Part shown: positions 2,340 to 13,978 of the stretch, piece after piece | Numbering within the stretch: the first letter of the stretch is position 1 | Layout: each line of letters starts with the position of its first letter | Assembly (NCBI GenBank): GCA_030156225.1 | Contig: JASGMW010000007.1 | Location: 1-33,368, forward strand | Direction of reading: 5' to 3' | DNA from: Methanofollis sp. | GTDB lineage: Archaea; Halobacteriota; Methanomicrobia; Methanomicrobiales; Methanofollaceae | DNA: 33,368 bases | Program-made: the position numbers and the translations under genes | The notes under the pieces: generated by a model | The model's input: the letters and a program-made list of their open reading frames with translations, nothing else | What the model was told of the DNA's origin: nothing | The model's database searches: none

Positions 2340-3534
2340 GATCAAACTCGTCGGGACGGCGCATGTTTCGGAAAAAAGTGTGGCCGAGGTCAGGGCGGCG
2401 ATCGAGGAGTTCCAGCCCGGCATCGTCGGCGTCGAACTCGATCCCGGACGTTACGCCGCCCTCAGACAGGAACAGCCCCCGCCGAAGGTCGAAGAGGTCC
2501 TGAAGGCCGGCAACTTCTCGCAGCTCCTGTTCCAGTGGACCCTTGCCTATCTTCAGCGGAAGATCGGCATGGACGTCGGCGTCGAGCCCGGTGCCGAGAT
2601 GGTCGCAGCGATCGAGGAGGTCGAGGGACGCGGCCTGCCCCTCGCCCTGATCGACCGGGACATCAGGATTACGTTCGCCCGATTCTGGGAGGGAATGAGT
2701 CTCTGGGAGAAGGCGAAGATGGTCTATGCCCTCGCCGTCTCGGTGACCGGTGCCGGGGAGGATACGATCGATATCGATGCCCTCACCGAGCAGGACGTGG
2801 TCTCCGCCGCCCTCGACGAGTTCAGAAAGTTTTCGCCGAACGGGGCGAAAGCCCTCATCGACGAGCGGGACGCCTACCTCGCCCGCCGTATCCTCGACCT
2901 CTCCACGCGCTACGACCGGGTGATGGCGGTGGTCGGCGCCGGTCACGTCAGGGGCGTCGAACGCTATCTCAACTCCCCTGAACTTCTCCCGCCCGAGGCC
3001 GACCTCGTTGCCCGCCCCAGACAGTATCCCTGGGGCAAGATCGTCGGCGTTGTCTTCATCGCCATGTTTGCGTTCCTGATCATATCCCTGGCGTTTTCAG
3101 GGGCCGGCTTTGCGATGCTCGGGTGGGCGATCCTGTACTGGGTGCTGATCAACGGCGTGCTTGCGGCGGTCTTCACCGTCGCCGCGGGCGGCCATCCCCT
3201 GTCCGTGATAACGGCCTTTGCGGTGGCATGGCTCACCTCTCTCAATCCCCTGTTGGCGGCGGGATGGTTTGCGGCCGCCGTGGAGGCGAAGGTCAGAAAG
3301 CCGTCGGCTTCGGACTTTCACCTGATCATGGAGGCGGAGAGTTTCTCAGAGATGCGGAAAGTGCCGATCTTCAGGGTCGTACTGGTGGCGGCGCTTGCAA
3401 ATGTCGGTTCGACCCTCGGGACGATCGCGTACTTCGCCTTCATCTCGCCGATCCTCGGGATCGATCCGACAGTCGTCATTCCGGTGGGTTTTTCGAACTT
3501 CATCGGATGGCTCGGCGACATTTTTTCTCTCTGA
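2332..3534 (+). CDS. TraB-family (TraB/PrgY) membrane protein
   Basis: This 400-residue protein begins with a TraB/GumN-type domain. Family marks are VGTAHVSEKSV (residues 6-16), GVELDPGRY (about 33-41) and VVGAGHVRGV (about 204-213). The C-terminal half holds several hydrophobic segments, from KIVGVVFIAMFAFLIISLAF through to the end, indicating an integral membrane region. TraB/PrgY homologues in enterococci dampen peptide pheromone activity. The archaeal members are uncharacterised, though the conserved His/Glu motifs suggest a peptidase-like or metal site. It overlaps the preceding gene by 8 bp and ends at a T-run, so it is probably the last gene of the guaAA unit. Confidence 0.85.
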   Translation: MGEIKLVGTAHVSEKSVAEVRAAIEEFQPGIVGVELDPGRYAALRQEQPPPKVEEVLKAGNFSQLLFQWTLAYLQRKIGMDVGVEPGAEMVAAIEEVEGRGLPLALIDRDIRITFARFWEGMSLWEKAKMVYALAVSVTGAGEDTIDIDALTEQDVVSAALDEFRKFSPNGAKALIDERDAYLARRILDLSTRYDRVMAVVGAGHVRGVERYLNSPELLPPEADLVARPRQYPWGKIVGVVFIAMFAFLIISLAFSGAGFAMLGWAILYWVLINGVLAAVFTVAAGGHPLSVITAFAVAWLTSLNPLLAAGWFAAAVEAKVRKPSASDFHLIMEAESFSEMRKVPIFRVVLVAALANVGSTLGTIAYFAFISPILGIDPTVVIPVGFSNFIGWLGDIFSL

Positions 3535-3538
3535 TCTC

Positions 3539-3545
3539 TTTTTTT
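3539..3545 (+). terminator. T-run terminator after the TraB-family gene
   Basis: Seven T residues start 5 nt after the stop codon at 3532-3534. There is no strong hairpin, which is compatible with archaeal U-tract termination. Confidence 0.45.
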
Positions 3546-3674
3546 CAGTGTATGCCTGCCAGATCTGTAAGGAGGCCGTTTCAGGCATCCGGTCCCGGCC
3601 GGTTGTGGTGACCCGGTATCCCCTGCCTCTTCGCAACTATTATCCGGTTTCCCTCCCCAGACAGGAGCATGTAT

Positions 3675-4187
3675 ATGGGTCCGAATCTTGAGCTCATCAT
3701 CTTCAGGACGCGTCACTCCGTCAGGAGTTACAGGGACGATCCGGTCGATGAAAAGATCATCAGGGACGCTCTCGACTGCGCCCGCCTTGCCCCGTCGGCG
3801 AGAAACGAGCAGCCCTGGCTTTTCGGCGTCATCTCGGAGAGGTCGACGCTCACGCAGATCGCCGGCCTCACCGATCATGCAAAGTTCCTGGCCGACGCGC
3901 CGATCTGCTTTGCGGTTTTTGGAAAAAAGGACGAAAAATATTATCTTGAGGACTGTTCGGCCGCCACGACCCAGTTGATCCTCGGCCTCTGGGCCTATGG
4001 CGTCGGATCCTGCTGGGTTGCAGGGGACAAAAAAGAGTATGCCGACGCCGTACGTGAGATCCTCGGTGTGCCTGGGGGCTATACCCTCGTCTCCCTGGTG
4101 CCTGCGGGATACCCGAAAGAGATCGCCATGGCCGGGAAGAAAGACCTTGACGATATCGTTTTTTCAGAGAAATATTCGGGCAGTTGA
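3675..4187 (+). CDS. Nitroreductase-family FMN oxidoreductase
   Basis: The protein has 170 residues from the ATG at 3675. An in-frame ATG at 3669 is only 1 nt from AGGAG (3663-3667), whereas 3675 has a 7-nt spacer, so 3675 is preferred. Family marks are the N-terminal RHSVRSYRDDPV, then CARLAPSARNEQPWLF (the FMN-binding segment), and GLWAYGVGSCWVAG near residues 106-119. The length suits compact archaeal NADH/F420-type nitroreductases. The physiological substrate cannot be deduced. BluB belongs to the same superfamily, but its reaction needs oxygen, so that role is unlikely in a methanogen. It converges on the PadR-type gene across a 28-bp spacer. Confidence 0.85.
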   Translation: MGPNLELIIFRTRHSVRSYRDDPVDEKIIRDALDCARLAPSARNEQPWLFGVISERSTLTQIAGLTDHAKFLADAPICFAVFGKKDEKYYLEDCSAATTQLILGLWAYGVGSCWVAGDKKEYADAVREILGVPGGYTLVSLVPAGYPKEIAMAGKKDLDDIVFSEKYSGS

Positions 4188-4193
4188 AGGTGC

Positions 4194-4205
4194 GGGCGAA
4201 TGCCC
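4194..4205. terminator. Small hairpin between convergent genes
   Basis: GGGC-GAAT-GCCC forms a 4-bp stem in the 28-bp gap between the nitroreductase stop and the PadR-type stop. It may slow polymerase in both directions. The evidence is only the inverted repeat and its position. Confidence 0.3.
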
Positions 4206-4215
4206 ATGCCTATTT

Positions 4216-5043
4216 TCAGAGCGTTTTGTCCTTCGGCCGGCAGAAGATGAGGGAGAGATCCAGGTAGTTGACGCTCATGACCTCGAAGTGAGCGTCGAGT
4301 TTCTTGAAGAAATCGACCTGCTGCCAGATACGCATTTCAGGGAAGAAGGTGGCGATCTCCCTGAGCAGAAACCCGCCGATCAGCGAGGTCTCTGCCATCT
4401 CTCCGGCGAACGGCAGGAACGTGACCAGCTGCGCTCCCTGGGCGAGGATCCGTGCAATCTCGGGCAGGGCCGTCGTAAGGTCGGCCCCGGCGAGGGCCGG
4501 TGCGATGACCAGATCGAAGGTCTGATCCCTGAAGGGGAGGTTCTCCTGTGCGGCGGCGACGGGGAGGAACCCTTCTGTCACCCTTCTCTCCCGACTGATG
4601 AGCCAGCGTTCCGGGATCTCGCCGGTCAGGTCGGCGGTTGCCGCCGCGAAGAGAGCCGCCTGCTCGCCCCTGAATGGGTCGGTGAGGAGTGCGATCCTGG
4701 CGAGCGGGCGGTCGCTCTCGAATTCGGCAACCATCAGTTCCTGAAAGGTGGCGGCGACAAGGAGATAATAATCTGCGATGATGAGCCCGATCCCGCTCCT
4801 GCGGGCGTCGAGCAGGGCTTTGCGCCCGGCGTCGGTGATGGAGTAGACCTTCCGTTCCGGTCCGACGTCGCTCGCTTTCCTGACATAGGAGACGAGTCCC
4901 CTTCGTTCGAGGGAGTTGATCATCTTGTAGAGATCGCTGTGACTCTTATGGAGGTCCCGTTCTTCGAGGCGAAACTTCAACTCATATACGTGGGAGGGTG
5001 CGGCGTCGAGCGCGGTGAGCACCTCCAGTTCAGGGTCACGCAT
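4216..5043 (-). CDS. PadR-type winged-helix protein fused to a methyltransferase-like domain
   Basis: The protein has 275 residues. About residues 1-85 form a PadR-like winged helix: a LEVLTALDAAPSHVYELKFRL-type start, DLYKMINSLERRGLVSYV as the recognition-helix region, and RKVYSITDAGRKALLDA as the wing. About residues 105-275 resemble a class I methyltransferase fold, with LPFRDQTFDLVIAP (strand 4-type) and PEIARILAQGAQLVTFLP (strand 5-type). The canonical glycine-rich SAM motif I is not evident; RIALLTDPFRGEQAAL occupies that place. The domain may therefore be a sensor rather than an enzyme (inference). It is divergent from cbiT across a 92-bp promoter region, the usual layout for a local regulator. 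Its ATG lies about 28 bp from a TATA-like TATTACTA on its strand. Confidence 0.72.
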   Translation of the reverse strand: MRDPELEVLTALDAAPSHVYELKFRLEERDLHKSHSDLYKMINSLERRGLVSYVRKASDVGPERKVYSITDAGRKALLDARRSGIGLIIADYYLLVAATFQELMVAEFESDRPLARIALLTDPFRGEQAALFAAATADLTGEIPERWLISRERRVTEGFLPVAAAQENLPFRDQTFDLVIAPALAGADLTTALPEIARILAQGAQLVTFLPFAGEMAETSLIGGFLLREIATFFPEMRIWQQVDFFKKLDAHFEVMSVNYLDLSLIFCRPKDKTL

Positions 5044-5135
5044 GTACTATGGTGACGCAGGTGAGTAGTAATACCTTCTCAAATGCTTCCGGAAAAACAA
5101 GGGTTAATTATCCTGCACAGGTCACCTTTACCTGC
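5044..5135. promoter_or_regulatory. Divergent promoter region of the PadR-type gene and the cbi operon
   Basis: On the minus strand, TATTACTA (5066-5073) lies about 28 bp from the PadR-type ATG. On the plus strand, TTAATTA (5104-5110) lies about 26-32 bp from the cbiT ATG at 5136. Both transcripts could thus be leaderless. The region also holds GTAATAC (5068-5074), overlapping the minus-strand TATA box, and AGGT-C-ACCT (5119-5127), a 4-bp-arm inverted repeat between the plus TATA box and the cbiT start. GGTGAC at 5051-5056 and GTCACC at 5121-5126 are inverted to each other. These are candidate operators; none is proven. Confidence 0.5.
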
Positions 5136-5666
5136 ATGGAGAGGGGACTTTCTGGCGGCCCGACTCAGGACGAGGTTGCGGCGGTGGCGCTCTGGCACCT
5201 CCGCCTGAGGGACGGATGCACCGTCGTCGACGTCGGCTGCGGGACCGGAAAGATCGCGGTGGCCGCCGCACGCACGGCCGGCCGGGTGATTGCAGTCGAC
5301 CGCCGCCCCGAAGCGGCTGCATGCACGAAGGCGGCCGCAGAAGAGATTCGTGCCCGAAACATCGAGGTCGTCTGCGGCGAGGCGGCGGCCGCCCTCAGGG
5401 GTGCGGGCCCGTTCGACGCCGCATTCGTCGGCGGTTCGCAGGACCTGGAGGCGGTGCTCGGCGTTCTCGCCGCCGAGGTAACCGGGCGGATCGTCGTCGA
5501 CTGCGTTCTTCTCGGCACGCTCCACCGTGCCGTGGAGACGATGCAGCGCCTCGGCATCTTCAGGGAGGTCGTGTCGCTCCAGGTCGCTCGCTCCCGCGCG
5601 CTCGGGGGCGGGCTGATGATGACTCCGTCGAATCCGGTCTGGCTTGTCATCGGGGAGGCGGTCTGA
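5136..5666 (+). CDS. cbiT: Cobalt-precorrin-6B C15-methyltransferase (decarboxylating)
   Basis: The protein has 176 residues from the ATG at 5136. An upstream in-frame start at 5049 would add 29 unrelated residues and leave no promoter room, so 5136 is chosen. It lies about 26-32 bp after a TATA-like TTAATTA. GGPTQDEV (residues 7-14) is characteristic of CbiT, and VDVGCGTGK (31-39) is the SAM motif I of class I methyltransferases. CbiT methylates C15 and removes the C12 acetate carboxyl late in the anaerobic corrin pathway. Length matches stand-alone archaeal CbiT; in CobL the same domain is fused to CbiE. It is the first gene of the operon, and its stop abuts the cbiL start. Confidence 0.92.
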   Translation: MERGLSGGPTQDEVAAVALWHLRLRDGCTVVDVGCGTGKIAVAAARTAGRVIAVDRRPEAAACTKAAAEEIRARNIEVVCGEAAAALRGAGPFDAAFVGGSQDLEAVLGVLAAEVTGRIVVDCVLLGTLHRAVETMQRLGIFREVVSLQVARSRALGGGLMMTPSNPVWLVIGEAV

Positions 5667-6281
5667 ATGCTCGTCGGCGTGGGTATCGGCCCGGGCGATC
5701 CCGAACTCCTGACCGTGCGTGCGGTGCGGATGATCAGGGAGGCCGATGCGGTCTTTGTCCCCGGGCGGGTTGCGGCGGCGATCATCGCCCCGTACCGCAC
5801 CGACGTGCAGATTCTCTCTTTTCCCATGACCGACGACGAGGAGTATATCGCCAGGTGCATCGAGGAGAACGCGGAAATCATCGCCCCGCACGCGCGCGAC
5901 GGTCTCTGCGTGTTCTGCATCCTCGGCGACCCGAACTTCTACGGCACTTTTTCCCGCCTGACGACCGTGCTCGCCGGGCGCCACCCGGGAATTGCGTGCT
6001 CCACGGTGCCGGGCATCTCGGCGATCACCGCCTTCGCCTCTGCCGCCGGCGTCTCCGTTGCCGGCGGCGTCGGGGTGAGCGACGGTTCTTCCGAGTCTTC
6101 GCGCCTTCTCCTGAAGGTGAAACGGCCGAAAGAGACGGCCGCCCGCCTCAGGGAGGAGGGCTTCGACGAGTTCGTTCTTGTCGAGCGGATGTACATGGGG
6201 GGGGAGCGGGTCTGCCGGGACGCGGATCTCCCCGAGGAGAGCAGTTATTTCAGCGTGCTGTTTGCGAGGAGAAACAAATGA
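5667..6281 (+). CDS. cbiL: Cobalt-factor II C20-methyltransferase
   Basis: This 204-residue SAM-dependent tetrapyrrole methylase has the precorrin methylase fold: GVGIGPGDPELLTV at the N-terminus, LGDPNFYGT (about residues 86-94) and VPGISAI (114-120). The combination fits CbiL, which adds the C20 methyl to cobalt-sirohydrochlorin, the first committed methylation of the anaerobic branch. It is slightly shorter than bacterial CbiL. Its ATG follows the cbiT stop directly (TGA-ATG), and its stop overlaps the cbiF start in ATGA. The assignment against the other methylases in the operon rests on motif style and on the presence of clear F, H and E homologues elsewhere. Confidence 0.87.
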   Translation: MLVGVGIGPGDPELLTVRAVRMIREADAVFVPGRVAAAIIAPYRTDVQILSFPMTDDEEYIARCIEENAEIIAPHARDGLCVFCILGDPNFYGTFSRLTTVLAGRHPGIACSTVPGISAITAFASAAGVSVAGGVGVSDGSSESSRLLLKVKRPKETAARLREEGFDEFVLVERMYMGGERVCRDADLPEESSYFSVLFARRNK

Positions 6282-6994
6282 ATACGGTATATTTTGTCGG
6301 TGCGGGGCCGGGCGATCCCGATCTGATCACGGTGAAGGGCAACGACCTGCTGATGCGGGCCGACCTGCTCATCTATGCAGGTTCGCTCGTGAACCCCGAG
6401 CTTGTCGCCAGGTCGCCGGCCCGGGAGAAGTACGACTCATGGGGGATGAAGCTCCCTGAGATGGTCGGGCTCATGCGCGAGGCCGCAGCGGCGGGAAAGC
6501 GCGTGGTGCGTCTCCACTCAGGCGACCCCTCCCTCTACGGTGCGATCGTCGAGCAGATCGCGGAACTGGAGCGCGACGGGATCGATGTCGAGGTGGTGCC
6601 CGGCGTCTCCTCGATGTTCGGCGCCGCGGCCGCGCTGAAGACCCAGTTCACGCTGAGGGGGGTGTCAGAATCGGTGATCGTCACCCGCCCGGCCGGTGCG
6701 ACCCTGGAAAAGGATATGATCCCGGAATTTTCCCGTTCCGGCGCCACGCTGGTCGTCTTCCTCGGCACCGAACACCTCGAAGCGGTGGTGGCGAAGGCCG
6801 AATGCCCGCCTGAAACGCCGGCCGCCGTCGTCTACCACGCCACCTGGCCCGACCAGAAGGTGGTCGTCGGCACGGTCGCCGATATCGCGGCGAAGACGCG
6901 GGCGGCCGGGATCGAGCGTTCGGCCCTGATCATCATCGGCCGGGTGGTGGACGCCGCCCGGTCGGGGTACGCCAAATCGGACCTCTACCGATGA
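6278..6994 (+). CDS. cbiF: Cobalt-precorrin-4 C11-methyltransferase
   Basis: The protein has 238 residues from the ATG at 6278, which overlaps the cbiL stop in ATGA and follows GAGGAG at 6266-6271. The open frame runs much further upstream through cbiT and cbiL, but that part is a shadow. Marks are VYFVGAGPGDPDLITVKG at the start, the CbiF/CobM-typical LIYAGSLVNPEL (31-42), HSGDPSLYGA (80-89) and VVPGVSSMFGAAA (106-118). CbiF methylates C11 of cobalt-precorrin-4. Length is close to the usual 250 residues. Its stop overlaps the cbiG start in ATGA, indicating translational coupling. Confidence 0.93.
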   Translation: MNTVYFVGAGPGDPDLITVKGNDLLMRADLLIYAGSLVNPELVARSPAREKYDSWGMKLPEMVGLMREAAAAGKRVVRLHSGDPSLYGAIVEQIAELERDGIDVEVVPGVSSMFGAAAALKTQFTLRGVSESVIVTRPAGATLEKDMIPEFSRSGATLVVFLGTEHLEAVVAKAECPPETPAAVVYHATWPDQKVVVGTVADIAAKTRAAGIERSALIIIGRVVDAARSGYAKSDLYR

Positions 6995-7863
6995 AGACGG
7001 CGGTGATTGCCCCCGGACGTTTTGCCGGGGATGCGGAGCGGCTTGCGGGCATCGTCGGGGGGGATTATCTCCCCTATGCGCACGACGTATTCGAACAGGC
7101 GTTCGAAGGCTATGACCGGATCGTCGCCCTGATGTCCGCGGGCATCGTCGTGCGCAGGATCGCCCCGCTCCTCACCTCCAAGTGGCGGGACCCTGCGGTG
7201 GTCGTGGTGAGTCCAGACCTCCGCTTTGTCGTCCCGCTCGTCGGCGGCCATCACGGCGCAAACGATCTCGCCCGGGAGATCGCCGCGGCCACCGGGGCCG
7301 CGGCGGTGATCTCGACGGCGACCGAGGCGCTCGGCCGCCCCTGTGTGGAGGGGATCGCCGCGGTCACCGGAACAGAGGTCGCGAATCCCTCCTCCACCCT
7401 GCCGGTGAACGCCGCCATGCTCGACGGCGACGTGCCGGTGTATACGGTGGGCGGCCCGGCCGTGGTGGTGGCCGGTCCGGCGGTCTCGGTGCTCGCCAGA
7501 GGCGGGGGGTACGTCGTCGGCGTCGGCTGCCGGCGCGGCACGCCTGCGGCAGCCGTCGTATCCGCGATCGGATCGGCGCTTGGCGAGGCCGGGATCACGG
7601 CGGACGATGTGCTCGTCTATGCGACGACGGAGAAAAAACGTGACGAGGCCGGGCTGACCCGGGCGGTTGCGGACCTCGGCGGGGTGCTCGTCTTTCTGCC
7701 CGACGCTGTGCTGAACCGGGAGACGCCCCCCTCGCCGTCGAGGGCCGGGCTGATCGGGCTTTCGGGTGTGGCCGAGCCCGCGGTCCTCGCGCTTGCGCAG
7801 CGGCGCGAACTGGTGCTGAACAAACGTGTCTACGGGGATGTTACGATTGCAATCGGACGATAA
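6991..7863 (+). CDS. cbiG: Cobalt-precorrin-5A hydrolase
   Basis: The 290-residue protein has CbiG architecture. An N-terminal domain carries MSAGIVVRRIAPLL and VPLVGGHHGANDLA (about residues 48-95). A middle part follows, and the C-terminal CbiG domain begins about residue 165 with VVGVGCRRGTP and contains LVYATTEKKRDEAGL. CbiG opens the delta-lactone of cobalt-precorrin-5A and releases the two-carbon fragment as acetaldehyde, the ring-contraction step of the oxygen-independent pathway. Its presence with CbiD shows that the anaerobic route is used. It overlaps cbiF by 4 bp and cbiH by 26 bp. Confidence 0.93.
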   Translation: MKTAVIAPGRFAGDAERLAGIVGGDYLPYAHDVFEQAFEGYDRIVALMSAGIVVRRIAPLLTSKWRDPAVVVVSPDLRFVVPLVGGHHGANDLAREIAAATGAAAVISTATEALGRPCVEGIAAVTGTEVANPSSTLPVNAAMLDGDVPVYTVGGPAVVVAGPAVSVLARGGGYVVGVGCRRGTPAAAVVSAIGSALGEAGITADDVLVYATTEKKRDEAGLTRAVADLGGVLVFLPDAVLNRETPPSPSRAGLIGLSGVAEPAVLALAQRRELVLNKRVYGDVTIAIGR

Positions 7864-8614
7864 ATCAGGCAAACTCTCTATCGTGGGAATCGGTCCCGGC
7901 GGGGCCGCCTGGATGACCGGTCGGGCTGCCGGGGCGATCGGGGAGGCGGAGTACGTCATTGGAAACGCCTTTTATCTCGAACAGATCAGATCCCTCCTCG
8001 AAGGGAAGACGGTGATCAGGAGTTCGATGGGAAAGGAGGTCGAGCGTGCGCGCCGGTGCATCGCACTCGCCAGGGAGCACCGCGTCGCCATGGTGAGCGG
8101 CGGCGATCCCGGCGTCTACGGGATGGCCGGGATCGTGCTCGAGGTGCTGGACCGCTCGGACGCCGCGGTCGCCGTCGAGGTGGTGCCCGGCGTCACCGCA
8201 GCCTGCGCCGGCGCTTCCCTGCTCGGATCCCCTCTCACCGGCGACCACGTGACCCTCTCCCTCTCCGACCTGCTCACGCCGTGGGAGGAGATCGAGCACC
8301 GTCTCGACTGTGCGTTTGCGATGGGCGTGCCGGTCGTCCTCTACAATCCCAGGAGCCGCGGCCGGCCCGAGAACCTCTCGCAGGCCCTTGCGATCGCGCT
8401 CCGCCACGCGTCGCCCGGGACGCCGGTGGGACTGGTGCGGAACGCCTGCCGGGACGGACAGGCGGTGTCGGTCACCACCCTGGGCGCCCTCGCCGCGGCC
8501 ACCGGGGCCGTCGACATGCACACGGTGGTCTTCGTCGGCGGGAAAGAGACGGTGAAGACGAAAAATGGGGGAATGCTCACGCCGAGGGGATATGGGAGGA
8601 AATATGTATATTGA
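7838..8614 (+). CDS. cbiH: Cobalt-factor III C17-methyltransferase
   Basis: The protein has 258 residues from the ATG at 7838. A GTG at 7826 in the same frame is also possible, but 7838 gives the usual short N-terminus. Marks are LSIVGIGPGG (13-22), MVSGGDPGVYGMAG (85-98), VEVVPGVTAACAGASLLG (113-130) and VVLYNPRSRGRPENL, the last typical of CbiH/CobJ. CbiH methylates C17 and promotes ring contraction by lactone formation. The gene overlaps cbiG by 26 bp and cbiC by 11 bp. It is an unfused CbiH, with no C-terminal CbiG or ferredoxin-type extension. Confidence 0.93.
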   Translation: MLRLQSDDKSGKLSIVGIGPGGAAWMTGRAAGAIGEAEYVIGNAFYLEQIRSLLEGKTVIRSSMGKEVERARRCIALAREHRVAMVSGGDPGVYGMAGIVLEVLDRSDAAVAVEVVPGVTAACAGASLLGSPLTGDHVTLSLSDLLTPWEEIEHRLDCAFAMGVPVVLYNPRSRGRPENLSQALAIALRHASPGTPVGLVRNACRDGQAVSVTTLGALAAATGAVDMHTVVFVGGKETVKTKNGGMLTPRGYGRKYVY

Positions 8615-9230
8615 TCCCGGCGCCGACACCCCGGAGGGGTACGCGATCTCGCGGACGAGCCGCGCCCTTGCCAGAGAGGTGATCGGCGATCAGACGGTCG
8701 AGGACCGGATCAGACAGCGGTGTGCGATCGCCGTCGGGGACTTCGTGATGGCCGATCTGGTCAGGTTCCGGGGCGACGGCGTCGCCGCCGGCCTCGAAGC
8801 GCTTGGAAGGGGGGCGCCGATCGTCGCCGACATCCATATGGTGCAGATGGGGATCCGGAAAAAAGAGCACGCATCCGAGGTGCTCTGCGCCCTCGATTTC
8901 GGGGCGGAAATCTCGGCCGAACGCGGGATCACCCGTTCTTCTGCCGGTTTTATCGCCCTCCGCCACCGGCTGGACGGCTCGATCGCCGTGATCGGCAACG
9001 CCCCCTCCTCTCTCCTCTCCCTCTGCGCGATGATCAGGGAGGGGGTGCGGCCCGCGCTCGTGATCGGCATGCCGGTCGGTTTTGTGCATGCCGCCGGGTC
9101 GAAAGAAGAACTCCGCGGTCTCGACGTCCCCTCGATCACGACGCAGGGGACGCGGGGAGGGACGCCGCCTGCGGTGGCGGCGATGAACGAGATCGTCACC
9201 CTCTTTGTGGAGCGGCAGCGTGCGGCGTGA
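8604..9230 (+). CDS. cbiC: Cobalt-precorrin-8 methylmutase
   Basis: The protein has 208 residues from the ATG at 8604, which follows GGGAGGA (8594-8600). In-frame upstream starts lie inside cbiH and are less well placed. CbiC/CobH shifts the C11 methyl to C12, giving cobyrinic acid in its cobalt form. The motif PIVADIHMVQMGI (residues 72-84) contains the family's catalytic His78. VIGNAPSSLLSL and VGMPVGFV-type segments (here GMPVGFVHAAGSKEEL) complete the family pattern. It overlaps cbiH by 11 bp and the cbiD start by 11 bp. Confidence 0.93.
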   Translation: MYIDPGADTPEGYAISRTSRALAREVIGDQTVEDRIRQRCAIAVGDFVMADLVRFRGDGVAAGLEALGRGAPIVADIHMVQMGIRKKEHASEVLCALDFGAEISAERGITRSSAGFIALRHRLDGSIAVIGNAPSSLLSLCAMIREGVRPALVIGMPVGFVHAAGSKEELRGLDVPSITTQGTRGGTPPAVAAMNEIVTLFVERQRAA

Positions 9231-10239
9231 GGCGATCACCGACCCGGTCACCGGCTTTGTCTATCCTGAGGAGTGGACGGCGCGGTGCGCGAGCCCGGAG
9301 GCCCTGACCCTCGCCGCCTCGGGTCTCGGCGTGCTCACCGCCTCGGGCGCGGTGCTTCGCCGCGGTTTCACCACCGGGACGACGGCCGCCGCGGCGTGCA
9401 CGGCGGCGGTGCTCTCCCTGCGAAATCCGGTCTCCGATGTTGCGGTCGCCCTGCCCTGCGGACTTGCGTTCACCGTCTCTGCCCCGGGCAGGAAAGGCAT
9501 CGGTTCGGCGAGGAAAGACGCAGGAGATTATTTTTCCGACGTGACGGCCGGTCTTCTGTTCGTGGCCGTCGCAAAACCCGCCCGGACCGGTCTCGCTGTT
9601 GAGGCCGGAGAGGGTATCGGACGCTTTGTCAGGGATACCCCCAGGTTCCGCGCCGGGGCGGCGGCGATCAGCGAAACGGCGATGGCATCGATCCTGCAGG
9701 GGATCAGGGGGGCCATGGCGGCGACCGGCATCCCGGGCGTCCGGGTGCGCCTCTCCATACCGGACGGTGCGGCGGTCGCCGGAAAAACCCTCAACCCCCG
9801 CATCGGGATCGAGGGCGGCATCTCGGTGCTCGGCTCGACCGGGCTCGTCGAACCCTGGGACGACCATCTCACCGGGTCGGCGTTCGAGCGGATCAGGGGT
9901 GCGGACCGGGTGGTGCTCACCACCGGCAGGATCGGGCTGCGTTATTCGCGTCTCCTCTTCCCGGACCGCGAGGCCGTGCTCGTCGGGGTGAACCTCGGGC
10001 GGGCGCTCGACGAGGCCCGGGGAGAGACGGTGATCTGCGCTCTTCCCGGCCTCGTGATGAAGTTCATCGATCCCGGGATCCTCGAAGGCACGGGATGCGG
10101 CACCGTCGAGGAACTGACGGCGACGCCTGCGTGGCCCGGGATCATGGCGCGTGCATTTGCGCGGTTCAGAGCCGACCGTCCCGGCGTCCGGGTCGTGATT
10201 GTGGACAGAAACGGTTGCATCATGGGTGATTCGGGATGA
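9220..10239 (+). CDS. cbiD: Cobalt-precorrin-5B C1-methyltransferase
   Basis: The protein has 339 residues from a GTG at 9220, with GGAG at 9209-9212 giving a 7-nt spacer. The open frame extends back to a TTG at 9205. Marks are RRGFTTGTTAAAAC (47-60), which is the CbiD hallmark, DPVTGFVYPEEW before it, and later GGISVLGSTGLVEPW and GCIMGDSG at the C-terminus. CbiD methylates C1 of cobalt-precorrin-5B with SAM and has a fold unlike the canonical precorrin methylases. Length fits archaeal CbiD. It overlaps cbiC by 11 bp and cbiE by 4 bp (ATGA). A cbiJ reductase, which should act straight after CbiD, is not next to it. Confidence 0.92.
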   Translation: MRREAITDPVTGFVYPEEWTARCASPEALTLAASGLGVLTASGAVLRRGFTTGTTAAAACTAAVLSLRNPVSDVAVALPCGLAFTVSAPGRKGIGSARKDAGDYFSDVTAGLLFVAVAKPARTGLAVEAGEGIGRFVRDTPRFRAGAAAISETAMASILQGIRGAMAATGIPGVRVRLSIPDGAAVAGKTLNPRIGIEGGISVLGSTGLVEPWDDHLTGSAFERIRGADRVVLTTGRIGLRYSRLLFPDREAVLVGVNLGRALDEARGETVICALPGLVMKFIDPGILEGTGCGTVEELTATPAWPGIMARAFARFRADRPGVRVVIVDRNGCIMGDSG

Positions 10240-10808
10240 AGATCGTCGGCGTGGGCTGCGGCCCTGATATGATCACGGCGGCGGCGGCAGCGGCGATCGC
10301 CCGGGCAAAGGTCGTCTTCGGCTCGGATCGCGCCATCGATCTGGCCCGCCCGTATATCCGCGAGGGAACCGAGGTGCACGAGATCGCCGACTACCAGCAG
10401 CTCAGGTCCCTGCCTGCCGATGCGGTCGTGCTCTCGACCGGCGACCCCATGCTTGCGGGGCTCGGCTATCTCGGAGGCGAGGTGATACCCGGCATCTCCT
10501 CGATGCAGGTCGCCTTCGCCCGTCTGGGGGTCTCCCTGGTCAGGTGTGCGGTCGTCGCCGCCCACGGGAAGGACCACGCGGCGGCGATCCGCGACGCCTC
10601 CCTGGAAGTCTCACGCGGAAAGGTTGTTTTTCTCATCGCCGATCCGCTGTTCTCGGTCCCTGATCTCGCAGCGGCCCTTCCCGTGGAGATGCGGATCGCC
10701 GTCTGCGAGAACCTCGGCTATCCCGACGAGCGGATCGTCGTCGGTACGGCAGGGGAGCCGCCGGTGCCTGAGACCGGACTCTTTGCGGTGGTGGCAGGCC
10801 GGTTCTGA
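10236..10808 (+). CDS. cbiE: Cobalt-precorrin-7 C5-methyltransferase
   Basis: This 190-residue precorrin-methylase-fold protein has MKIVGVGCGPDMIT at the N-terminus, VVLSTGDPMLAGLG (64-77), EVIPGISSMQVAFARLG (82-98) and AVVAAHGKDH. These fit CbiE, which methylates C5; together with CbiT it equals the two halves of CobL. It is the last gene of the eight-gene block, starting by ATGA overlap with cbiD. It converges on a truncated tnpB with a 12-bp gap, so the mobile fragment lies immediately beyond its stop codon. Confidence 0.9.
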   Translation: MKIVGVGCGPDMITAAAAAAIARAKVVFGSDRAIDLARPYIREGTEVHEIADYQQLRSLPADAVVLSTGDPMLAGLGYLGGEVIPGISSMQVAFARLGVSLVRCAVVAAHGKDHAAAIRDASLEVSRGKVVFLIADPLFSVPDLAAALPVEMRIAVCENLGYPDERIVVGTAGEPPVPETGLFAVVAGRF

Positions 10809-10809
10809 T

Positions 10810-10846
10810 CGATTGGCCGCTCAATCGCATGTGCCTGGAAGCGGCC
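10810..10846. terminator. Competing hairpins at the cbiE/tnpB junction
   Basis: CGATTG (10810-10815) and CAATCG (10822-10827) form a 6-bp stem with a 6-nt loop. GGCCGCT (10815-10821) and AGCGGCC (10840-10846) form a 7-bp stem with an 18-nt loop. The two share bases and so exclude each other. They lie at the 3' end of both convergent genes. They could be a terminator or the right-end hairpin of an IS200/IS605-type element. Confidence 0.45.
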
Positions 10847-11516
10847 CTGTCGGCACATAATAGCACCATTCGCTTCCTGCCGGTGCGATCGCCTTTCTGT
10901 GCACTTTTTTTCCCGGCCGTTCTTTCTGCTGCATGAGCGGTGCGATCGCGGCGATGTTCAGGGCGGCATTCACGTCGGCGTGTTCCTCATAGCCGCAGGA
11001 GGGGCAGAAGAAGTATTTGCGCTGCCTGACCCCCGTCTCCCCGCATCGTGAGCACCGTTTCGACGTGCCTGTCGGGTTCACGAACTCGACCGGGATTCCT
11101 TTCATCTCCGCCCTTTTCACGACCGTCTTCTGGAGGGTATAGAAGAGCCAGAGCTCGTGATTTTCTGTCGAGATCTCCCTGCCCTGTCGTTTTCCGAAGA
11201 GCCGCTCCATCCTGATCCCGGCCCCCCTATCCCTGGCGAATTCGACGACTCCGGTGCTGATCGCATGGTTCTGATCCCTGATCATCCTGAGCATCGTTTT
11301 TTTCTGTTTTTTCCGGTGCATCCCTTTTTTTGATCCCGTTCGTTCGACGCTCCGCCTGAGGGCGGCGAGGCTTCTGCCGAAACACCGCACCTCTCCGGTC
11401 ACCGGTTCGGCTGCAACGGCAATGTGGCCGGCGGTGTTCAGGTCCACGCCGACCCAGAAGAGCGGACGCTGGCCTCCCCCACCCTGGATGCCGGGGTCCG
11501 GGAAGCCACTATACAC
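10821..11516 (-). pseudogene. tnpB: N-terminally truncated IS605-type TnpB with intact RuvC residues
   Basis: The reading frame gives 231 residues from a GTG at 11516; full-length TnpB is usually about 350-400. The C-terminal nuclease part is complete: WVGVDLN (Asp25, RuvC I), RMERLFGKR (Glu104, RuvC II), the zinc finger CSRC (155-158) and CPSC (171-174), and HADVNAALNI (Asp181, RuvC III). The N-terminal nucleic-acid-binding domain is missing, and a stop codon closes the frame upstream at 11535-11537. No TnpA is seen. TnpB is an RNA-guided nuclease, with the guide transcribed from the element's 3' end. Here it lies between cbiE and cbiA, opposite to the operon. It is probably a decaying insertion, although domestication cannot be excluded. 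Confidence 0.85.
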
Positions 11517-13027: not shown

Positions 13028-13978
13028 ATGGTCGACGCCCTCTCGGCAACGGCGGCGGCCGGCTACCTGGTGAGAGCGGTCGCCCTGATCACCGTTGGCA
13101 TCGTCGTTGCAAACGTCATCACCGAGACCGGCATCATCTCAAGGCTGAAGTTCCTGTCCTGTCCGATCTCCAGGATTTCCGGCATCTCTTCCCGTTCGTC
13201 TCTCGCCCTCGTCACCATGGTGGCCGACGCCACCGCCGGAAAATCCATGCTCGCCGAGTTCTATCACGACGGCAGCGTCCGGCGGGAGGAGGTGGTGCCG
13301 ACGCTTCTGATGGGAACCTTCCCGACCGTCCTCGGCGAGTCGCTCTTCCGTGTCCAGCTTCCGACCGCAATCGTTCTTCTCGGCCCTGTGATCGGGGGGA
13401 TCTATACGGGCCTGAACATTCTTTCCGCCCTGATCCAGACGACCGGCGCGATCGTCTGGGTCAGACTGATCCGGAAAAACGCCGGCGGCGTTCTCCAGGA
13501 TGAGGAAGAGCCTGCCCGCGTCGGCCTCGACCGACTGACCATCAGGGCCGGGGTTGTAAAGGCATTTTCCTCCCTGAAACGCATCGTCCCGATCACCGTC
13601 GCGGCCACGATCGTTTTTTTTATCCTCTCCTCGACCGGAGTGGTGGACCTGGTCGCCGCCGTGTTCGCGCCGGTTCTCGGTCTCATCGGCGTTCCCGGCG
13701 AGAGCATTGCAGCGATCGTCGCCCAGGCCCTTCACTTCTCGGCAGGGTACGCCGTGGTGGGTTCGCTCATGGCGGGCGGCATCCTTTCGATGGAACAGGC
13801 GTTGATCACCCTGATCGCCGGATCGATGGTGGTGATCACGATGATATACATCAAGTACTCCGTGTCCATATACCTCTCCCTCTTCGGCGACGAAGGGCCG
13901 AAGATTATTGCAAAGACCTATCTGGCGAGCATGGGGGCGAAGGTGGCGACGATACTGATCGTGCTCGCTGTTTTTTGA
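13028..13978 (+). CDS. GATE (nucleoside-recognition) domain membrane protein
   Basis: This 316-residue hydrophobic protein has several membrane segments, for example AVALITVGIVVANVI near residues 17-31, AIVLLGPVIGGIYTGLNILS, and IVPITVAATIVFFILSST. It also has the conserved region SSLALVTMVADATAGKSML. This fits the GATE/nucleoside-recognition family (COG3366-like), related to the pore-forming Gate regions of FeoB. It starts 1 bp after the cbiA stop, with GGGGA (13016-13020) as ribosome-binding site, so it shares that mRNA. Position beside cbiA and cobN suggests transport of cobalt or another metal, or of a pathway compound. That is inference from context; no substrate residue can be read. Confidence 0.75.
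   Translation: MVDALSATAAAGYLVRAVALITVGIVVANVITETGIISRLKFLSCPISRISGISSRSSLALVTMVADATAGKSMLAEFYHDGSVRREEVVPTLLMGTFPTVLGESLFRVQLPTAIVLLGPVIGGIYTGLNILSALIQTTGAIVWVRLIRKNAGGVLQDEEEPARVGLDRLTIRAGVVKAFSSLKRIVPITVAATIVFFILSSTGVVDLVAAVFAPVLGLIGVPGESIAAIVAQALHFSAGYAVVGSLMAGGILSMEQALITLIAGSMVVITMIYIKYSVSIYLSLFGDEGPKIIAKTYLASMGAKVATILIVLAVF

Follow-up and report, generated by a model that had tools for sequence, protein, structure and literature searches.

PadR-family regulators such as AphA, TM0937, and RosR of Halobacterium (VNG0258H) carry a winged-helix head with a helix after the wing, and a helix at this position is the usual dimerisation site in PadR proteins. Autorepression is common in the family. 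In SahR, an HTH is combined with a methyltransferase-like part, a build that a gene length of 1023 bp would fit. COMT-type O-methyltransferases and BchU, which methylates a tetrapyrrole, place a winged helix before a class I methyltransferase fold. Enzyme folds re-used as the sensors of regulators are known mainly from bacteria. VNG0258H is listed as a PadR-family member repressed by RosR (PMC4287449). ArsR^M of Brevundimonas consists of an HTH and a methyltransferase domain, is reported to bind its own promoter, and acts as an arsenite methyltransferase (PMC10190100). SahR, encoded by a 1023-bp gene, is a SAH-responsive bacterial regulator of the ArsR family with a SAM-cycle regulon (PMC4239095, PMC8877191). 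TrmB of Halobacterium is a sugar-responsive global regulator that affects cob/cbi genes (PMC3794607).

The regulator described here is encoded in the window, that is, the whole stretch of 33,368 nucleotides that was analysed. Like AphA, TM0937, and RosR, it has a winged-helix head, and a helix is predicted after the wing, but where ordinary PadR proteins end in a short helix or a helical domain, it carries a methyltransferase fold. Like ArsR^M, it unites an HTH head and a methyltransferase domain in one chain. ArsR^M, however, has an ArsR head, keeps its SAM site intact, and is active as a SAM-dependent arsenite methyltransferase, whereas the window regulator has a PadR head and lacks SAM motif I. 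SahR is comparable as an HTH regulator in SAM metabolism, but it is bacterial, belongs to the ArsR family, and senses SAH. TrmB is also an archaeal one-component regulator, yet of another family and without a methyltransferase fold. COMT-type O-methyltransferases and BchU share the order of domains, but they are active enzymes with motif I and use the winged helix for dimerisation. HTH-methyltransferase fusions are already known. In the literature consulted, which lay largely outside subscription journals, we came across no archaeal regulator that joins a PadR head to a methyltransferase fold. Such a protein, with its SAM site lost and its gene maintained by selection in a few methanogen-type archaea, offers a compact, uncluttered system in which to ask what signal a defunct enzyme domain perceives.

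Architecture of the regulator

The gene and its product are laid out as follows.

4216-5043, minus strand: regulator gene, PadR/pseudo-methyltransferase, 275 aa (ORF list, profile match, homologues, structure model)
4813-5022, minus strand: PadR winged-helix domain, residues 8-77 (PF03551, E 8.9e-15)
4723-4833, minus strand: long linker helix, residues 71-107 (secondary structure of the model)
4228-4728, minus strand: class I methyltransferase-fold domain, residues 106-272 (profile and fold matches)
4666-4698, minus strand: place of SAM motif I, residues 116-126, without G-x-G-x-G, aligned to LEIGCGNG of true methyltransferases (alignment)

The winged-helix N-terminus recognised in the preliminary description is confirmed by Pfam, where PF03551 (PadR) scores 54.9 bits against a curated cut-off of 27. 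Among the Pfam hits to E 1, PadR was found instead of an ArsR model, and an O-methyltransferase dimerisation domain was likewise absent. The PadR and methyltransferase matches in NCBIfam are weak, none of them close to its cut-off, and the sequence matches in the PDB are PadR proteins at the head and weak methyltransferases at residues 142-215. The AlphaFold model of the whole regulator, for which an alignment of eight homologues was the input, is confident (pLDDT 86.3, pTM 0.76) and places the parts in the order winged helix, long helix, and alternating strand-helix domain. The helix after the PadR wing is predicted in a single-chain model, and the regulator would dimerise, most likely through this helix.

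When the whole regulator was compared with the PDB by Foldseek, the matches were O-methyltransferases that begin with a winged helix, including BchU (E 1e-8), at TM-scores of just 0.41-0.47 over the full chain, probably as a result of different domain placement. The C-terminal part alone (residues 106-275, 170 residues; modelled from nine homologues, pLDDT 77.8) matches class I methyltransferases (E 4e-7; TM-scores about 0.5-0.64), and the class I methyltransferase fold proposed earlier for this half is upheld by structure prediction and fold search. Methyltransf_11 matches residues 153-207 barely above the cut-off (E 1.4e-4; profile positions 37-94 of 95). Since this match begins at profile position 37, the first third of the profile, motif I included, is missing. 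As had been suspected, the glycine-rich motif I (G-x-G-x-G) is absent, in all nine homologues with a readable segment. At this place the window has ALLTDPFRGEQ, G006 has AVVPDPLSGGM, G018 has ALVLSPFAASR, and G058 has LLVLSPISAKE, and the run in G199 is unrelated. LEIGCGNGK or LDIACGTG stands there in those true methyltransferases of the order to which the domain is similar, and the order's nearest stand-alone methyltransferases keep the motif. The window regulator and its close relatives have lost the motif III aspartate (AAQENLPF), which is present in G018 (GDAAQLPF) and G058 (GDATEIPF). Most homologues retain the strand-IV and V/VI motifs (FDLVIAP, LPEIARxLAPxGQLVTFLP), and the pair Cys268-Arg269 is invariant. 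These alignments indicate that the domain has retained its core and lost its main SAM-binding loop. With motif I gone throughout, it is unlikely that the domain senses SAM in the usual way, as had been suggested earlier.

Distribution and gene neighbourhood

Gene content suggests that the organism belongs to Methanomicrobiales. Homologues are present in 10 of the 232 genomes of the order, the same 232 genomes serving for the order search and the class search. Six of the 12 members of the window's genus, three members of family f3, and one genome of family f5 carry them. Nine are full-length and one (G048) is split over two contig ends; the f5 homologue (G199) is divergent but full-length, at about 22-27% identity. 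Apart from G199, those weak order-wide hits (E 1e-4 to 1e-12) that were read are PadR proteins or methyltransferases of the ordinary kind. No full-length homologue appeared outside the order in a sample of 393 phylum genomes, and a scan of genome contigs yielded PadR heads from bacteria alone (Streptomyces, Vibrio AphA-like), with nothing related to the C-terminal domain. In pairs of G007 with genus members, dN/dS is 0.13-0.22, which indicates purifying selection on the gene, with dS close to saturation in several pairs and an overlapping antisense frame that could inflate the constraint.

The following neighbours recur.

5136-10808, plus strand: cbi operon cbiT-L-F-G-H-C-D-E, divergent neighbour in the window's genus only (ORF list, NCBIfam, neighbourhoods)
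3669-4187, plus strand: nitroreductase-family gene, convergent with the regulator at each of the ten homologue loci (profile match, neighbourhood comparison)
L100:7798-8361, L103:457-1011, and L101 near 3361-3885: DUF2115 gene (PF09888) overlapping the regulator in three f3 genomes

The regulator lies tail-to-tail with the nitroreductase-family orthologue in 10/10 loci, with DUF2115 between the two in f3, where the regulator stop codon overlaps the DUF2115 start codon by 4 bp (G018, G048, G058). The nitroreductase-family gene is present in 61/61 relatives examined, usually next to traB, and in genomes read further its neighbours also include ykgJ, guaAa, and cobT, whether or not the regulator is present. 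Its best NCBIfam match in the window is BluB, at 53 bits far under the cut-off of 150, and in G058 it comes after cobZ and cobS. DUF2115 occurs in 60/61 relatives, often in two or more copies, and in family f4 and several f3 genomes it adjoins the nitroreductase gene with no regulator present; no literature on DUF2115 was found.

On the upstream side, the regulator faces the cbi operon over 92 bp (5044-5135) if cbiT starts at 5136, and the orthologous cbiT genes favour a start well inside the mechanical ORF at 5049. The divergent arrangement seen at the outset stands. By established cbi biochemistry, six enzymes of this operon (CbiT, L, F, H, D, and E) use SAM. Divergent cbiT is the upstream neighbour in 5/10 loci, all in one genus (G000, G002, G004, G005, G006). 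In G007 this neighbour is a gene for a nucleoside-recognition-type membrane protein (the orthologue of window 13028-13978), in G018 a SelB/EF-Tu-like gene, in G199 the end of a ribosomal-protein/secY operon, and in G048 an apparent hexulose-phosphate-synthase-type gene. The cbi genes of G018, G058, and G199 lie elsewhere or on another contig, and none were found in the G048 contigs read. The preliminary description had tied the regulator to the corrin genes and had named unlinked homologues as the finding that would speak against this tie; such homologues make up half of the loci, and a dedicated regulator of the corrin operon is not supported.

Within the genus the two also part, in both directions. 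Six of the 11 cbi-bearing members lack the regulator, and in these genomes (G001, G003, G008-G011) cbiT adjoins the nitroreductase gene; no remnant of the regulator was found in the nitroreductase-cbiT gaps of G001, G003, G008, and G011. In a tree of five neighbour proteins whose deep branch is weakly supported, genomes with cbi and without the regulator fall into two separate groups. Conversely, G007 has lost the whole cbi operon, with neither CbiT nor CbiD, and keeps the regulator; solely a stretch resembling the end of cbiA is left at the site. The loss was seen against relatives at C3 465000-484000 (L097), and G007 probably depends on salvaged cobamides. Neither the regulator nor cbi needs the other, the cbi neighbourhood is recent and dispensable, and the adjacency is most likely lineage-specific. 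A divergent placement beside an operon can mislead where relatives separate the two in this way.

Intergenic DNA and possible roles

The DNA between the regulator and cbiT holds these elements.

5044-5085, minus strand: upstream DNA of the regulator, probable own promoter and control site (identity to G007)
5066-5073, minus strand: TATA-like TATTACTA of the regulator promoter (intergenic alignment)
5076-5094, no strand: weak candidate dyad TTCn..nGAA, imperfect in the window (not above shuffles)
5096-5110, plus strand: cbi core promoter (AACAAGGGTTAATTA) (conserved whether or not a genus member carries the regulator)

Promoter-like elements are conserved on both sides, in keeping with the double-promoter region proposed earlier. 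The cbi side has a box AACAAG/A.GTTAATTA (GTTATTTA in one clade) and then a conserved leader to ATGGA, and both are nearly identical in genus members with and without the regulator, so the box does not depend on it. On the regulator side, 35 of the 42 bases at 5044-5085 (83%) are identical between the window and G007, against 38 of 96 fourfold sites of the regulator gene (40%). This comparison shows that the upstream DNA is under constraint in a genome without cbi, a constraint that a core promoter could explain by itself. The arms of the dyad are complementary, with compensating outer bases, in four of the six regulator-bearing genus members; no inverted repeat upstream of the regulator rose above shuffled sequence, and the constraint is what suggests autoregulation. 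In four genomes there is no second copy, exact or with one mismatch, of the 16-base motif around TATTACTA, and the window contains no cobalamin riboswitch or other Rfam family.

We consider it fairly likely that the protein is a PadR repressor of narrow distribution which probably regulates itself, that its pseudo-methyltransferase domain is the effector part, and that its adjacency to cbi is lineage-specific. It would act as a one-component transcription regulator, its PadR winged helix binding DNA as a dimer; DNA binding and repression are expected because they are known for PadR proteins. The class I methyltransferase fold without motif I would serve as an effector domain, perhaps binding a ligand, or as a scaffold for dimerisation, and not as an enzyme. 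The most probable target is its own promoter (5044-5094), under autorepression. In the sister family f3, the regulator may also govern the co-transcribed DUF2115 gene, and control of cbi, if any, would be a late addition in the window's genus.

Control of the divergent operon in that genus, with a corrinoid, a pathway intermediate, or the SAM state as signal, is possible, since regulator and cbi share a short intergenic region in five members. As the role of the protein we regard it as unlikely, even though cobT belongs to the block on the other side of the regulator and the homologues of G058 and G018 have cobZ and cobS nearby. Genomes without the regulator conserve the cobT block as well, the six members that lack the regulator have an unchanged cbi core promoter, G007 retains the regulator without cbi, no homologue outside the genus adjoins cbi, and the loss of motif I argues against a SAM signal. 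A broader proposal, that the protein represents a new archaeal class of one-component regulators whose methyltransferase fold has given up its SAM site and senses another ligand (corrinoid, nucleotide, or redox signal), with later recruitment to the corrin operon in one genus, seems distinctly unlikely to us.

The constant convergent neighbour and the overlapping operon with DUF2115 in three loci might instead point to control of the nitroreductase/DUF2115 locus by the protein, possibly in answer to redox conditions, with the methyltransferase-fold domain serving only for dimerisation. Convergent genes, however, have no common promoter, the traB-nitroreductase block and, in another family, DUF2115 are conserved without the regulator, and DUF2115 is absent at the regulator site in the window's genus, which makes this role very unlikely. 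The domain order and the best fold matches, BchU among them, are also those expected of an active methyltransferase that dimerises through a winged helix, as O-methyltransferases of plants and bacteria do. We hold such an enzyme to be extremely improbable, as motif I is missing in every readable homologue, the genus has lost the acid of motif III, and the head is PadR rather than an O-methyltransferase dimerisation domain.

Other features of the loci

A 352-aa ORF at 3997-5055 on the plus strand was rejected as a gene; its frame is antisense to the regulator and is an artefact of the high GC content. Between cbiE and cbiA, a TnpB-like ORF at 10821-11516 on the minus strand of the window is an insertion-element remnant, of which an 82% identical copy lies at the same place in G004 and which was not found there in G002, G005, or G006. 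Near the regulator locus of G018 (L100:1-4100) there is a direct-repeat array with a CRISPR-like look, with FNPHFPRNGIET repeated in its translation.
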